22,606 nucleotides of DNA from a virus. The notes below the pieces were generated by a model, which ran no database searches, was not told the origin of the DNA, and saw nothing but the letters and a program-made list of their open reading frames with translations. The stretch covers positions 1-22,606 of IMG/VR virus record IMGVR_UViG_3300048625_000147; one strand, 5' to 3'. Shown here piece after piece: positions 6,859-16,675 of this stretch (position 1 is its first letter; the number at the start of each line of letters is the position of its first letter). The position numbers were made by a program, and so were the translations under genes.

Positions 6859-7763
6859 TTATCTCTTTTTAGATTCTATTCTTTGCTTTTCTTCTTCTAG
6901 ATACTGAATCAACATGTGCACATAAATTTCACGCTCAAAGGGAATCATCGTTTCCAAATCTTCCAAAGAATACTTGTGGTACTGCATCAGAGCGAAGTTC
7001 ATTTTATAGAAATTTACTAAACTCTCATGACACAGGTTTATTAAAAAAAACTTTGCATGCCCTCCAGGGCTGCTGTGTGGTGTTTGCCACAAACTGGACA
7101 ATCATACTCAACCACCTTTTTAATCTTAGGCATAGTGGTAAAGAATGTTTGTAAATTCTTAAATTGATCAGAGGTTAAGTTCCCTAAGAACTGTAGGATA
7201 TCTTCTTTGCTTTGTTCTGCAGCGTAGTGGAGTTCATCGCCTTGATAAATGATATCAACACAATCAGCAATGACACCGAAGATAGCATCAATGTTCTCTG
7301 AGTCTAATTCTTCTAATGCAGCTAGAGTCTTCATAGATGGATACTTCATCACAACACCAACGTCATTGAACAACGTAATCTTTGTTGTATGCCCTTCTGG
7401 TTTCTCGACTTCTAGCTTGGAGATATCAATAGAGATCTTTACTTTAGCCTTAGCGTTATCTTCACCATGGTCAACATCGCACGGGAATAGAAGTTCAACA
7501 ACTTCACCAACTGACTTGGAACGAATCTGAGTAAAAATATACTCGATGTCGAAAATAGCTAGACGGTCAACATCAATTTTATCAGTAACGCAACTTCTAA
7601 TAACACCCTTTAGAGTATCAACCATAACGTTTAGGTCTTCAGACTGCTGGGCAATCAACAGAGCCTTTTCTTCTTTCACTAGGAAAGGTCTATACTTAAC
7701 ATTCACTCCAGTGGATGGCACCGTTAGATTGTATGTCGGTGTTGCCATAATTGGTAAAGCCAT
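6859..7763 (-). CDS. Probable -1 frameshift fusion of the gp26-like protein with a 61-residue C-terminal domain
   Basis: If the ribosome slips back one base on the T run (7050-7043), reading continues from the second Phe of QSFF into LINLCHESLVNFY and on to KQRIESKKR, stopping at 6861-6859. The fusion is 301 aa. The extension is a good helical sequence (KYSLEDLETMIPFEREIYV, then LIQYLEEEKQR) of the kind seen in hub or chaperone proteins. It has no convincing start of its own: the internal ATG at 7002 has no Shine-Dalgarno sequence. The extension ends two bases before the tape-measure start. The alternative is that one T is missing from the run, in which case a single 301-aa gene exists. Either way the extension is coding. 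Confidence 0.7.
7041..7763 (-). CDS. 26: gp26-like baseplate-hub / tape-measure chaperone protein, zero-frame product
   Basis: The 240-aa zero-frame product resembles the T4 base plate protein family containing gp26. A YRPFLVKEEKALLIAQQ segment lies near residues 24-40, followed by VDRLAIFDIEYIFTQIRSKSVGE (65-87), a beta-rich middle, and a Cys-x2-Cys plus His-His cluster (CPVCGKHH, 222-229) that may bind zinc. In T4, gp26 is needed for hub assembly, and this class of protein is thought to chaperone the tape measure. AAGGAG lies before the ATG, inside the end of gp16. The frame stops at TAA directly after a run of eight T, where a -1 frameshift would extend it. Confidence 0.75.
   Translation of the reverse strand: MALPIMATPTYNLTVPSTGVNVKYRPFLVKEEKALLIAQQSEDLNVMVDTLKGVIRSCVTDKIDVDRLAIFDIEYIFTQIRSKSVGEVVELLFPCDVDHGEDNAKAKVKISIDISKLEVEKPEGHTTKITLFNDVGVVMKYPSMKTLAALEELDSENIDAIFGVIADCVDIIYQGDELHYAAEQSKEDILQFLGNLTSDQFKNLQTFFTTMPKIKKVVEYDCPVCGKHHTAALEGMQSFF
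7043..7065 (-). promoter_or_regulatory. Candidate -1 frameshift site with upstream Shine-Dalgarno-like element
   Basis: On the minus strand GGAGGG (7065-7060) is followed by nine bases and then eight T (7050-7043), with the zero-frame stop TAA (7043-7041) using the last T. T-TTT-TTT fits the X-XXY-YYZ slip pattern. An internal Shine-Dalgarno about ten bases upstream is the stimulator arrangement known from Escherichia coli dnaX. I see no strong hairpin just downstream. Confidence 0.65.
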
Positions 7764-7765
7764 AA

Positions 7766-8182
7766 TTATTCTCCTTGCATTTTCTTGATCATTTTGTTTA
7801 ATTCAGCAGTACTACCCACGAAGATAGCATTGTTGGTCACTTTATCACCGCCTGACTTAGCTACACCCTTTGGTGCATCTAGTTTGGCTTTTTGCTGGTG
7901 GATGTCCATCAATTGTTGGTTCACATCAGCAAGTTGTTTCATTAAGTTACCCACTACCTCAAAGGCACGTGGGTGTTCAGATTGTTTGGCGACTTCTAGT
8001 GCATGACTCAAAGCAGCCTGTCCTGTAGACAATAATTCACGAAGGTTATTTCTGGTAACATCGTAATCTGTCTCAATCTTATCATTAGATTCAGGAATCA
8101 CTGTACCATCTTTCGCAATCACTTCAGTCTTTGACATCGGAGCGACATCAAAGATTTCTGATAAAGAATCATCAAGTTTCAT
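7766..8182 (-). CDS. 16: gp16 small terminase subunit
   Basis: The 138-aa protein fits T4 gp16 (164 aa). The region from about 38 to 100 (DYDVTRNNLRELLSTGQAAL, SEHPRAFEVVGNLMKQLADVNQQL) aligns with T4 [20 protein letters not shown] and SPRHMEVFATLMGQMTTTN. The C-terminal NNAIFVGSTAELNKM matches T4 NATVFMGSPTELMDE. It forms the ring-shaped small terminase that regulates the large subunit gp17 during headful DNA packaging. gp17 is not in the window; in T4 gene 16 lies next to 17, so its place here, between the holin-like gene and the gp26-like gene, is unusual. Five bases separate its start from the upstream stop. Confidence 0.9.
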   Translation of the reverse strand: MKLDDSLSEIFDVAPMSKTEVIAKDGTVIPESNDKIETDYDVTRNNLRELLSTGQAALSHALEVAKQSEHPRAFEVVGNLMKQLADVNQQLMDIHQQKAKLDAPKGVAKSGGDKVTNNAIFVGSTAELNKMIKKMQGE

Positions 8183-8187
8183 ATTGT

Positions 8188-8634
8188 TTAGTCGTTTCTG
8201 GTATTTCTAGTTGGTGGGTCACTTGGGTCGAGTGTGACTGGAGCTGCAACTGGGGTTGATAATACTGGTTTTGGGATTGCACTTGGCGTAGGTACGCTAG
8301 GTGTTGGAGAGACGCTTGGTGATCCTGTTGCTGTCGTTGCTGCACCGCCATTATTTGCTCCTGCTAGTTTTTCTTGGGTACGACCCATTGCTGCGATACC
8401 GAGAACAGCACCCATAGCTACGTGGAACAAACCTGCGCCTTGTAGAGTTAGTGGTTGCCATTGCGTAATTGGTTGCTTCAAAATAGTCTGAGCCAGACTC
8501 CATAGAATAGGGAACAACATAAAGTCAGCTGTACAAATAGCCATGTACATCCAACCCATCATTGGACGCCACTTGGAATTCATCCAATCTTCTTTTTTCT
8601 GTTCGCTTGCGCTTAGTTTAGTTTCTTCTGCCAT
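8188..8634 (-). CDS. Holin-like membrane protein
   Basis: The 148-aa protein has two clear hydrophobic segments, about residues 25-51 (KWRPMMGWMYM onward to LAQTIL) and 65-84 (LQGAGLFHVAMGAVLGIAAM). They are separated by ITQWQPL and followed by a long Pro/Ser/Thr-rich, probably disordered tail. The KWRP...MY...FP and LQGAGL-HxAMGAxLG pattern is what I recall from the holin (gene-transfer-agent 3TM holin-like) proteins of marine T4-like phages. A holin would open the inner membrane at lysis and let the cell-wall hydrolase work. AAGG lies before the start. The family call rests on memory of the pattern and on topology. Confidence 0.7.
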   Translation of the reverse strand: MAEETKLSASEQKKEDWMNSKWRPMMGWMYMAICTADFMLFPILWSLAQTILKQPITQWQPLTLQGAGLFHVAMGAVLGIAAMGRTQEKLAGANNGGAATTATGSPSVSPTPSVPTPSAIPKPVLSTPVAAPVTLDPSDPPTRNTRND

Positions 8635-12300: not shown

Positions 12301-13580
12301 TGCAATCGTCAGAACAAGCAGTTAGATTTGCAGGTGATGTAAATATCACCAAGATTAAAATCGTAACTAGAAATGGTCTAGCGCAAGATATCACAGCGCA
12401 GGTCATTAACATTCAGATTTTTGAAGACTTGTTCTCACCATTCATCACAGGTAGTCTGATCATTAAAGATTCTTTGGACTTGATTAACCTGTTCCCATTC
12501 GCTGGTGAAGAAGAAGTTGAGATTGAAATTAACACACCATCATTACCTACTGGCAACATCAATTCAAAGTTCTACATCTATAAGATGACTGACAGAGAAA
12601 TGCTTGGTGATAGAAGCATGGTGTATCAATTACACTTTATTTCTAACGAAGCCATTGTTGATTTGAACAAGAAGATTAGTAAAGTTTATGGTGATAAGCC
12701 TGAGTTAATTGTTCAGAGTTTATTAGAAGATCAAGTGAATGGTCTTCAAACCACAAAGAAATTTATATCAGAGCCTTCGGCAAAGATCGCTAAGTTTATC
12801 TCTAACTTCTGGTCACCAGTAGAAGCCATCAATTACGTAACACAACTCGCCGAGAATAAGTCAGGCTCCCCATCTTACGTATTCTATGAGAACCGTGATG
12901 GTTTCTACTTTACTAGTCTAGAATCATTGTATGAGGCTCAGGTCTATCAAGAATTTGTTATGGACAAATACACTCGTGATGATAAAAAGAATGGTGGAGA
13001 TGGTAAGAACGTATCAGAAGATTACAAGCGTATTGGATCTATCAGCATTCCAAAGGGTTTTGATTACATGGATCGTATTAGATCTGGATTGTTTTCTTCT
13101 AAGCTAGTTTCTTATGACCTAACTAAGAAAGCATACAACGTTAAGAACTATAACATGTTTGATGATTTCTCTACACAGAAACATCTAAACCCATATAATA
13201 TTGCTTCCAGTAAAGCAATTTTTAGAACTAATGCGAAGGCGTTCAGTTATCCACGAATGAATTCTAACTTTAGTGGGTTCACCGATGCCACTAACTACAG
13301 AAACACTCAGAAAAGAACCTCTCTGCTTAACGCTGCTGAAGCAAACAAAATTCAAATCACTGTTCCTGGTCGTTGTGACTACACAGTTGGGCAAAAAGTT
13401 AAGGTTACATTAAATAAGATGGAACCAATCTCTAAAGACGATATGGATGTAACAGACAAGATGTTTTCTGGTTACTATCTAATCGCTGCAGTAAACCACT
13501 ATATCACTCGTGATATGCATGAATGTTCTATGGAACTAATTAAAGACTCATTGCTGATGAGCGTTGACGGGACAAAATAA
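12300..13580 (+). CDS. 27: gp27-like baseplate hub protein
   Basis: The 426-aa protein is similar in size to T4 gp27 (391 aa) and sits just before gp5, its partner in the hub. An N-terminal tube-like domain opens with VNITKIKIVTRNGLAQDI, INIQIFEDLFSPFITGSLIIKDSLDLINLFPFAGEE. The last part shows IQITVPGRCDYTVGQKVKVTLNKMEP and FSGYYLIAAVNHYITRDMHECSMELIKDSL, typical of hub proteins of the gp27/gpD group, where the domain carries VPG-D--VG. The trimer joins the six-fold tube to the three-fold spike. Starts and stops overlap both neighbours by one base, so gp53, gp27 and gp5 are probably translationally coupled. Confidence 0.85.
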   Translation: MQSSEQAVRFAGDVNITKIKIVTRNGLAQDITAQVINIQIFEDLFSPFITGSLIIKDSLDLINLFPFAGEEEVEIEINTPSLPTGNINSKFYIYKMTDREMLGDRSMVYQLHFISNEAIVDLNKKISKVYGDKPELIVQSLLEDQVNGLQTTKKFISEPSAKIAKFISNFWSPVEAINYVTQLAENKSGSPSYVFYENRDGFYFTSLESLYEAQVYQEFVMDKYTRDDKKNGGDGKNVSEDYKRIGSISIPKGFDYMDRIRSGLFSSKLVSYDLTKKAYNVKNYNMFDDFSTQKHLNPYNIASSKAIFRTNAKAFSYPRMNSNFSGFTDATNYRNTQKRTSLLNAAEANKIQITVPGRCDYTVGQKVKVTLNKMEPISKDDMDVTDKMFSGYYLIAAVNHYITRDMHECSMELIKDSLLMSVDGTK

Positions 13581-16500
13581 TGTTTTATACAGGCGTAGTT
13601 GAAAATAGACAAGACCCACTACAACTTGGTCGATGCCAAGTTCGTATCGTAGGACTCCACACTCACGATAAAGCTCAGCTACCTACTGAGCAACTGCCAT
13701 GGTCTACACCAGTTCAACCAGTGACATCTGCTGCGATGAACGGAATTGGTATGACCCCAATTGGTCCAGTTGAAGGTTCTACAGTAATCATCATGTTCGC
13801 AGACGGTGCGCAACAACAACCGATTATGCTTGGTACTATTGGCGGTATTCCAACTGCGCCAAAGGCAATTGAAGATGACGACAGTGCCACACCTTTTGAT
13901 GACCAATCAAACCTAAAAGATATTGTACTTCGCACTATTGATGGTCCAGTGACAGGTAAGCAGTTAACGTTCATTGACAGAGAGACAAACAGAACTAACC
14001 TGACTAAAGGTTTAACTGCCAACATGAAGGTTGTTGGTTTTGGTCTATCCGATAACTGTACCATCGTTACGATTGATAACGAAACACAAATTACAATTAG
14101 CGAAGCTGTTACTGGTTATGCTGAGAACATTATCACATTCAAGCCAGCTGCCACTAACTTAGATGCTGTTAATGTAAGTAAGCTGCAAGGCGTCTTGATG
14201 ACTGCCGCTGGAATGCCAATAACTACAAATGATGGCACACCAGTGCGAACTGCTGAGTCACAACAAGGCGCTCCAGTTCAGACTGCTACGAATACTTCTA
14301 TCCCTACCATTCCTCCACCAAAATCCACATCAGATGCATCCAAGTCATCTGCTGGCATCAAAGCACTTATCGCAGCTTGTGATAAGGTTGGGTTGACGAC
14401 TAAAGAACAAAAGTGTGCTCTACTCGGCATTGCTGGTGGCGAGACTACATGGATCCCTCAGCTAGAATCATACAACTACTCTGCTTCTCGTATGAAACAG
14501 ATCTATTCTTTCGCAACAGACGAAGATATTGCCAAATACTCTGATGCTTCTAAGAAAGGCATCACACGTGCTGAGTTCTTCTCATGGGCATACGGTCCAA
14601 CGAAACGTGGTAAAGGTTTCTTGGGTAACCTGACAGACGAAGATGGTGGTAAGTATTTCGGTCGTGGTTTCATCCAGCTAACTGGTCGAGCAAACTATGC
14701 TCGTTACCAGAAACTTGCTAACGAAGCTGGATTAAACATCGATATCGTAAACAATCCAGATTCACTTGATAGTGATTTGCAAGTGTCTGCTATGGTCGCT
14801 GCTCTTTACATTAAAGACCGTGTAGCTAAAGGCGTAAAGCCAACTGAACATCCTGGGTTTTTCTTAGCTGCAAAGAAAGCAGTTGGTGTAAATTCACCAG
14901 ATATTACTGCCAAGAAAACATCTTACTACGAATACTTCTATGGTGCTGCTGCAGGTAATGCAGTAGACAAAGACGCTGGTGCACCACTTGCCGCTCCACC
15001 TGCTGATTACAATGGAGTCCCTGGACCTTCTGCTGAATCTATCAAACGTGGCACCGACAATACGGGTTTCCGTGACCCAAACAACAAGTATCCGCTAAAA
15101 GAATACTTGAATGAACCAGATACTAACCGTCTTGCTCGTGGTATCATTGATGGAACTATCGTTGAGAAGAAAGATGCCAACATCGTTAAAGGTGTACCAA
15201 AGGCAGTTGGTATGGGTTCATGGGATCAACCAATGCCATCTTTCGGCGCTCAGTATCCGTACAACAAAGTGTTTGAAACTGAATCTGGTCACATTCAAGA
15301 GTTTGATGATACTCCAGGTCAAGAACGTATTCATACATACCACAGAGCAGGCACATATCAAGAGATTGATCCAAATGGCTCTGTGATTAACTACATCGTT
15401 GGTGACAAGTTTACCTTGATGGAACGCAATGGTTGTATCCATGTTGGTGGTGAATGTAACATCACAGTCGACGGCAACTTAAATGTATTTGCTCGTACAG
15501 ACGCTAACATCGAAGTAGCACAGAATGCAACTATTCGTGTTGGAAATAATCTAGACGTTGGTGTTGCCAACGATATGTACTTCGCTGCTGGTGGTGACGT
15601 TCTTGTAAAAGCTGGCGGAACATTTAAGGTTCATGCTAATGACGTTTCTGTTCTAGCTGATGCAGATTTAACTATGATGGGTACTGCAACAACAAGTATT
15701 AAGGGCGACAAAGTAAATATGGAGTCTGCTGGCTCCATGGATCTTCTTGCAGGTGGCACTCTGTCTGCAGATTATGCTGAAGGTCAATTCGGTAACGGTG
15801 CTGCTGGTGCCACTGATGTTTCTCCAGTTGAATTAACACCACCACCAGTTGGTGATCCAATGAACTCTGTTGTTCCATACTTAATTCCACCAGAACGTAA
15901 GACTGAAGAATTGGCTGCGAATGAAACACCAGAAGACTTCAATACCCCAGAAGGTCGTGCGGCTTCTAATGCACAAACCCAATCTGGTGTTCCAGGTGCT
16001 GCTGCTCCAGTTGCTTCTGAAGAAGCTGGTACACCATCAGGTGGTTCTGGTAAACAGATTCCAGTCGACTGTAAAATCATTTATGGCACTAAGAACTTTA
16101 CCAATGATTACACTATCTCGAAGAACTTTACTCTTGGTATGTTGATGGATGGTGGCGTCAATGGTAAACACAAGCTAGTTGACCAGATGCTTAGAGATGG
16201 TCCAAATACTGCAGAACGTATCTACACTGTTCAAGAAATTGTATGTAACTTAGCAATGTCTGCACAGAACATCCTTGAGCCTTACTTGGAAGCACTTCCA
16301 GGTGGTATCGGCGGTTATAACAAGCAATGGAAGATTTCTTCTGGTTATCGTCTAAAGGGTGTTGTTCCAACTGAATCTCCATTCTCTGATCACTGTAAGG
16401 GTCATTGTTTTGATATCGCTTTGATGTTACCAGACCGTAACAACAAGACATACAATTTAGTTCAGCAGCTAGAAAAGTTAATCACATACGATCAACTAAT

Positions 16501-16675
16501 CTTAGAGTATCGTGCTCCAGATTCAGTGTGGATTCATACTGCTTACAAGCCACAAGGTAATCGTAAGATGGCATTTACTATGGTAAACGATTCTGTCTAC
16601 AAACGTGATGCTAAGGGTGTTCCATCTGGGTTCATTCTGTTGGATACTATTCCACCGAAAGCTAAGAAGGTATGA
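13580..16675 (+). CDS. 5: gp5 baseplate hub/spike with GH19 glycosidase and M15-type peptidase domains
   Basis: The 1031-aa protein is nearly twice T4 gp5 (575 aa). Residues 1-92 form the gp5 OB fold (FYTGVVENRQDPLQLGRCQVRI...). Residues about 110-195 are a small beta domain. Residues about 255-455 are a GH19 (chitinase class I/lysozyme) domain with ALLGIAGGETTW (likely catalytic Glu288) and YFGRGFIQLTGRANYARY (359-376), in place of the T4 GH24 lysozyme. Residues about 560-735 are the beta-helix spike (VDGNLNVFA, VGNNLDVG, AGGDVLVKAGG). A Pro/Ala linker leads to an M15 zinc-peptidase-like domain (about 835-1000) with SGYR, SDHCKGHCFD (His938, Asp945) and WIH (His986). It should puncture the envelope, cutting glycan and peptide bonds. 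Its stop overlaps the PAAR start (ATGA). Confidence 0.9.
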   Translation: MFYTGVVENRQDPLQLGRCQVRIVGLHTHDKAQLPTEQLPWSTPVQPVTSAAMNGIGMTPIGPVEGSTVIIMFADGAQQQPIMLGTIGGIPTAPKAIEDDDSATPFDDQSNLKDIVLRTIDGPVTGKQLTFIDRETNRTNLTKGLTANMKVVGFGLSDNCTIVTIDNETQITISEAVTGYAENIITFKPAATNLDAVNVSKLQGVLMTAAGMPITTNDGTPVRTAESQQGAPVQTATNTSIPTIPPPKSTSDASKSSAGIKALIAACDKVGLTTKEQKCALLGIAGGETTWIPQLESYNYSASRMKQIYSFATDEDIAKYSDASKKGITRAEFFSWAYGPTKRGKGFLGNLTDEDGGKYFGRGFIQLTGRANYARYQKLANEAGLNIDIVNNPDSLDSDLQVSAMVAALYIKDRVAKGVKPTEHPGFFLAAKKAVGVNSPDITAKKTSYYEYFYGAAAGNAVDKDAGAPLAAPPADYNGVPGPSAESIKRGTDNTGFRDPNNKYPLKEYLNEPDTNRLARGIIDGTIVEKKDANIVKGVPKAVGMGSWDQPMPSFGAQYPYNKVFETESGHIQEFDDTPGQERIHTYHRAGTYQEIDPNGSVINYIVGDKFTLMERNGCIHVGGECNITVDGNLNVFARTDANIEVAQNATIRVGNNLDVGVANDMYFAAGGDVLVKAGGTFKVHANDVSVLADADLTMMGTATTSIKGDKVNMESAGSMDLLAGGTLSADYAEGQFGNGAAGATDVSPVELTPPPVGDPMNSVVPYLIPPERKTEELAANETPEDFNTPEGRAASNAQTQSGVPGAAAPVASEEAGTPSGGSGKQIPVDCKIIYGTKNFTNDYTISKNFTLGMLMDGGVNGKHKLVDQMLRDGPNTAERIYTVQEIVCNLAMSAQNILEPYLEALPGGIGGYNKQWKISSGYRLKGVVPTESPFSDHCKGHCFDIALMLPDRNNKTYNLVQQLEKLITYDQLILEYRAPDSVWIHTAYKPQGNRKMAFTMVNDSVYKRDAKGVPSGFILLDTIPPKAKKV

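Follow-up and report, generated by a model that had tools for sequence, protein, structure and literature searches.

A conserved candidate -1 frameshift site joins gp26-like and gp51-like coding sequences in a T4-like phage fragment

Introduction

The G-T frameshift of tail genes has been described as conserved in long-tailed phages 'except T4' (Atkins et al. 2016; PMC5009743), and the gp51 proteins of cyanophages and marine vibriophages have been reported to lack their first ~200 residues, in an account that leaves frameshifting unmentioned (Sullivan et al. 2010; PMC3037559). The locus considered here raises the question of whether a T4-like phage might likewise draw two proteins from a single gp26-like gene. 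It lies in the window, the stretch of 22,606 bases analysed here, which is the whole of IMG/VR record IMGVR_UViG_3300048625_000147 and is a fragment of a T4-like phage. A sequence-only reading of this DNA had proposed that the gp26-like gene just upstream of the tape measure gene yields a short chaperone and, by -1 slippage, a 301-aa fusion. Comparative tests across relatives support that proposal, and the locus is very probably a tail assembly chaperone gene of the lambda G/GT type, expressed through -1 ribosomal frameshifting.

Results and discussion

The locus and its predicted products

The zero frame of the gp26-like gene ends AGT TTT TTT TAA (7052-7041), giving Q-S-F-F-stop on a run of eight T (7050-7043). 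These details of the sequence-only reading were verified on the minus strand, as were the spacing of the upstream GGAGGG and the continuation in the -1 frame (Table 1). The window has no other T8, whichever strand is read, and by itself this one is unsurprising, since 3.2 such runs are expected in a shuffled window; for GGAGGG, about 0.07 chance matches are expected with one mismatch allowed. The slip site is judged to go beyond chance because both site and extension are conserved and because the extension is a known domain. Read from position 7044, the -1 frame gives 61 residues, beginning LINLCHES and ending ESKKR, with its stop codon at 6861-6859; two bases then separate it from the ATG of the next gene (6856-6854). 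No start codon was found in the -1 frame of this locus before the slip site, and the earliest ATG within the extension falls deep inside the conserved domain.

The label 'gp26-like' holds good: the zero-frame product matches PF12322 (T4 baseplate protein gp26; E 1.1e-60) and phrog_150 (baseplate hub, gp26 family; E 2.6e-66). The extension matches positions 58-116 of the 121 in phrog_634, 'baseplate hub assembly catalyst' (T4 gp51; E 2.3e-25). A further match, to the far end of phrog_150, suggests that some members of that gp26 family are recorded with the extension attached. Family profile searches gave no convincing match for the 527-aa product of the gene downstream, which is called a tape measure protein because of its position and because Caulobacter phage Cr30 has, at the equivalent place, a gene with the annotation tail tape measure protein.

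Table 1. Positions in the window of the features of the candidate frameshift locus
Feature	Position	Strand	Basis
gp26-like gene, short form (TAC-N), 240 aa	7041..7763	-	ORF; PF12322; phrog_150; T4 gp26 family profile
GGAGGG, Shine-Dalgarno-like	7060..7065	-	9 bases 5' of the T run; synonymous bias to GAG GGR in relatives; not universal
Candidate slippery heptamer T_TTT_TTT (X_XXY_YYZ)	7044..7050	-	conservation of the TTTTTT core
Zero-frame stop TAA, immediately 3' of the heptamer	7041..7043	-	
Predicted stem-loop, possible stimulator, starting 8 nt 3' of the heptamer	6982..7035	-	folding energy
-1 frame extension (TAC-C / gp51 C-terminal domain), 61 codons plus stop	6859..7044	-	phrog_634; T4 gp51 profile
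Probable tape measure protein gene, 527 aa	5273..6856	-	position; annotation of the Cr30 counterpart

Several other genes of the window merit mention in their own right. The gp26-like gene is separated from the tail tube gene by two minus-strand genes, one small-terminase-like and one GTA-type holin-like (7766-8182 and 8188-8634), which is an unusual place for genes of packaging and lysis type. On the plus strand, a ClpP-like protease gene (PF00574; 761-1357) adjoins a cell wall hydrolase gene (PF07486; 256-798), and the 1031-aa gp5-like protein encoded at 13580-16675 contains an OB domain and gives a weak match, below cut-off, to class I chitinases (Glyco_hydro_19).

Conservation of the slip site

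The junction could be read in 77 IMG/VR relatives, and all of them carry a -1 frame extension behind T_TTT_TT(T/C). The extension likewise follows the heptamer in 84 of 84 genes from further scans, in which a marine cyanophage gene was used as query, together with smaller scans for relatives of KVP40 and Cr30. No relative without a slip site was found in the readable IMG/VR sets. The statistics given below come from 176 compiled genes, reduced to 58 non-redundant ones, with no IMG/VR gene discarded for want of a heptamer; counts over these relatives are uncorrected for shared ancestry, the genes being phylogenetically non-independent. The heptamer is T_TTT_TTC in 42 of the 58, T_TTT_TTT in 15 and T_TTT_TTG in one. 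No relative has nine T; eight occur in independently assembled close relatives of the window, and most lineages have TTTTTTC.

The codon ahead of the run may be AAT, AGT, TCT, GAT, GCT or TAT (specifying N, S, D, A or Y), and its third base is T every time. The first Phe codon of the site is TTT in all 58 genes, against a background of 62%, and at the other Phe-Phe pairs of the same genes TTTTTT is used in 2 cases out of 56. The smallest overlap between the -1 and zero frames is 7 nt, the heptamer itself; with the -1 frame open for as little as this before the zero-frame stop, the shift is therefore pinned to the heptamer. To judge from these patterns, the heptamer appears to be under selection as a site.

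Its TTTTTT core was found in all readable relatives, the Ackermannviridae and the lineages with two genes excepted. Fourteen of 16 named phages, spread over several lineages of the T4 superfamily, have both the heptamer and the -1 extension, and the two exceptions are Ackermannviridae. The positives are Prochlorococcus and Synechococcus phages, Pelagibacter phage Mosig, Caulobacter phage Cr30, Pootjesviridae, Sinorhizobium phage phiN3, Menderavirus, pf16, Milchi, KVP40-like phages and Aeromonas phage 65. Both elements are also present in Aeromonas phages AS-zj and PX29, and XG4 fits the pattern with T_TTT_TTA. Phage Aeh1 is reported to be without gp51.

Candidate stimulatory elements

The Glu codon 15 nt upstream is GAG rather than GAA in a ratio of 19:7, compared with 292:991 elsewhere in these genes, and the Gly codon that follows it is skewed to GGA and GGG. 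Set against synonymous simulations, the match to a Shine-Dalgarno sequence is in modest excess, at a level reached by 4 of 200 simulations, and the element is missing from part of the marine clade. On the downstream side, folding energies calculated over 60-nt segments of the 58 relatives gave a mean z of -1.9 at offset +3 and mostly about -0.3 at other offsets; low folding energy is restricted to the 60 nt around and just 3' of the heptamer. The stem-loop predicted in the window has an energy of -14.7 kcal/mol (z -2.97). Covariation in the downstream stem is thin and unconvincing in both the marine clade and the clade of the window, and the observed pairing is better than that of slid controls. 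The folding data make it likely that the downstream hairpin is real, and it and GGAGGG probably serve as stimulators of the slip.

Relation to T4 gp26 and gp51

The sequence-only reading had supposed that the fusion joins functions, gp26 and possibly a gp51-like one, that T4 keeps in separate genes. The genes are indeed separate in T4 and the extension is gp51-related, but gp51 corresponds in a single ORF to the full long form, with a gp26-like domain and an extension domain, and not to the extension alone. Compared as profiles, the spliced 301-aa fusion and the T4 gp51 family align from end to end (score 111). Taken alone, the gp26 portion matches positions 1-200 of T4 gp51 (score 67) and the extension matches positions 201-253 of the gp51 profile (score 39). 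The domain boundary in gp51 lies at 200/201, so that its joint coincides with the slip site. In T4 itself, gp26 matches gp51 over the first 200 residues (score 92), and the short form of the window scores 148 against the T4 gp26 family profile. Reversed, column-shuffled and unrelated profiles, the last of these being the proteins of T4 genes 27, 28, 29, 48, 54, 25 and uvsY, all scored 8.2 or less.

AlphaFold models of the short form from the window (pLDDT 86) and of a T4-type gp51 (pLDDT 81) have their structural elements in identical order, gp51 having additional C-terminal helices, and a search of viral structures with the gp51 model found gp26 proteins (E 1e-10). When the fold of the short form was searched against solved structures, the HK97 tail assembly chaperone 2ob9 ranked second or third, with the highest listed probability (0.51-0.57) and a non-significant E of ~0.8. 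The gp26 and gp51 profiles run against the sequences of solved structures gave weak, unrelated matches only. On the profile alignments and the models, T4 gp26 is the counterpart of the short form and T4 gp51 that of the complete long form, made from two genes, and the extension is the C-terminal domain of T4 gp51.

Lineages with other arrangements

Unlike T4 with its two genes, the window has one gene and a -1 extension. Among the loci examined the two-gene arrangement was found in T4, Stupor, Aes508 and PM2, where the end of gp26 lacks the heptamer (it reads GAG TTC TTT GAG in T4), and as a tandem in Vibrio phage phiKT1024. There, a gene for the short chaperone and one for the long, both with starts of their own, follow one another at 1311-2653 of the phage's locus; the gp26 end has GGT TTC TTC and no heptamer, the slip site having been lost, and relatives of the long gene occur in other Vibrio phages and in Campylobacter phages.

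The Ackermannviridae differ again. In four of them a gp51-like extension is again in the -1 frame, but behind an invariant ATT TTC ATT TAA from which a canonical slippery heptamer is absent, and an extension of this type is present in 280 phage records. The authors of one such genome reported finding no tape measure chaperone in it (PMC6509524). As a tentative joint reading, which we hold to be somewhat less probable than an even chance, a three-part signal (GAGGG, U_UUU_UUY/G and a lineage-specific hairpin) would operate across the T4 superfamily outside the T4 group. It would have been replaced at least twice through duplication (divergent in T4, tandem in phiKT1024), and the Ackermannviridae would use a different shift at ATT TTC ATT TAA.

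Proposed mechanism and alternative explanations

Under -1 frameshifting, most ribosomes would terminate at TAA to give the 240-aa short form. A minority, with Phe-tRNAs in the P and A sites on U_UUU_UUU, would slip one base back to UUU UUU, at a rate probably raised by the upstream GGAGGG and the downstream hairpin, and would translate 61 further codons to give the 301-aa long form with its C-terminal domain. The short form is likely to coat the tape measure protein, and the few long forms to link the complex of short form and tape measure to the tube or baseplate during assembly; the chaperone function of both forms is putative. That the slippage is ribosomal, and that a minority of ribosomes make it, is inferred from the sequence.

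The same 301-aa protein would result from part of the mRNA if RNA polymerase were to add one U on the T8 run. The run is long enough to be a candidate for this, the extra U would give an identical fusion sequence, slippage is known at runs of nine A or T (PMC5009743), and in the clade of the window such an event on T8 is possible. However, 42 of the 58 non-redundant relatives have TTTTTTC, with only six T, and yet retain the exact X_XXY_YYZ phase, while the downstream folding signal suits ribosomes better than a polymerase; transcriptional slippage is accordingly very improbable as an account of the locus. A missing ninth T, through an error of sequencing or assembly to which homopolymer runs are prone, would make the true gene a single 301-aa ORF. 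This has next to no probability and was rejected, for the same T8 followed by TAA occurs in independent contigs of close IMG/VR relatives (87-94% identity), and the phase is unchanged in more diverged relatives, which have TTTTTTC and a variable distance to the stop.

It might also be supposed that the extension is an independent small gp51 gene, translated from its own start or through termination and reinitiation. Deposited annotations do split the two, as in P-HM2 gp51 (30 aa, from an internal ATG) and S-PM2 gp51, and junctions of KVP40-like phages, Menderavirus and Cr30 contain TAATG or TGATG, which places an ATG in the -1 frame. The heptamer is nevertheless retained even where TAATG exists, and the spliced fusion matches T4 gp51 from end to end. 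When the relatives were checked for a start of the extension's own, 56 of the 58 non-redundant genes proved to have none in the -1 frame ahead of the slip site. In close clades, moreover, the first 13 codons of the extension were tested, and 73% of the changes in them affect the third position of a -1 frame codon; constraint on that frame sets in right at the junction, ahead of the usual first Met and of any internal ATG. A separate small gene was rejected on the lack of a start before the site and on this conservation from the junction, and we regard it as highly improbable.

Annotation of public records

If gp26 supplies them through the frameshift, as seems to be the case, the puzzle of the ~200 residues missing from gp51 (PMC3037559) is explained, and the qualification 'except T4' (PMC5009743) would hold for the T4 group and not for T4-like phages at large. 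By tblastn the extension was found in 586 phage records, and those examined either list it as a small gene in its own right or leave it unannotated. In KJ019089, MF448340, GU459069 and GU075905, for example, it is unannotated or cut back to an internal ATG, and gp51 seems to be absent or shortened. Public annotation thus holds several hundred phage records in which the extension figures as a truncated separate gene or does not figure at all.

Comparison with known systems

The slip site of lambda gpG/gpGT is a G-rich heptamer, whereas the window has U_UUU_UUU, a larger chaperone domain (240 aa) and a contractile T4-like tail. The likeness is one of arrangement: in both, a short chaperone and a rarer, C-terminally extended one are specified by a single locus just upstream of the tape measure gene, with a -1 shift near the 3' end (PMC5009743). 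The Vandenendeviridae and Andersonviridae, too, are myoviruses whose tail chaperone gene ends in a poly-T site for a -1 shift, with the extension misannotated as a separate gene, but the motif is GTTTTT and the virus families are different (PMC12846349). E. coli dnaX shares with the window an upstream Shine-Dalgarno-like element at similar spacing and a downstream hairpin; it differs in its A_AAA_AAG site, in that the shift yields the shorter product, and in being a cellular gene.

The closest precedent lies among the T4-like phages themselves. Vladimirov and colleagues are said to have found, in 2022, that a number of T4-like groups use frameshifting and that the T4 group has 26 and 51 as two genes. 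The sequence-only reading knew of no such description for T4-type hub genes, but one exists. Vladimirov, Gautam and Davidson (Virology 2022, 566:9-15) recognised these genes as encoding the T4-like tail assembly chaperones, and PMC12846349 cites them where it attributes poly-T slippery sequences to the TAC-N genes of these phages. Going by that citation, the strategy of the window locus was already published for T4-like phages in 2022, and the present finding is good but not new; what it adds, consistently with the 2022 work, is a new case that is well documented, along with some details of the mechanism. As far as the citing source conveys them, the T4-like tail assembly chaperones of that study (T4 genes 26 and 51; Vladimirov et al. 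2022) are the same genes, with the same short and long forms, as those described here.
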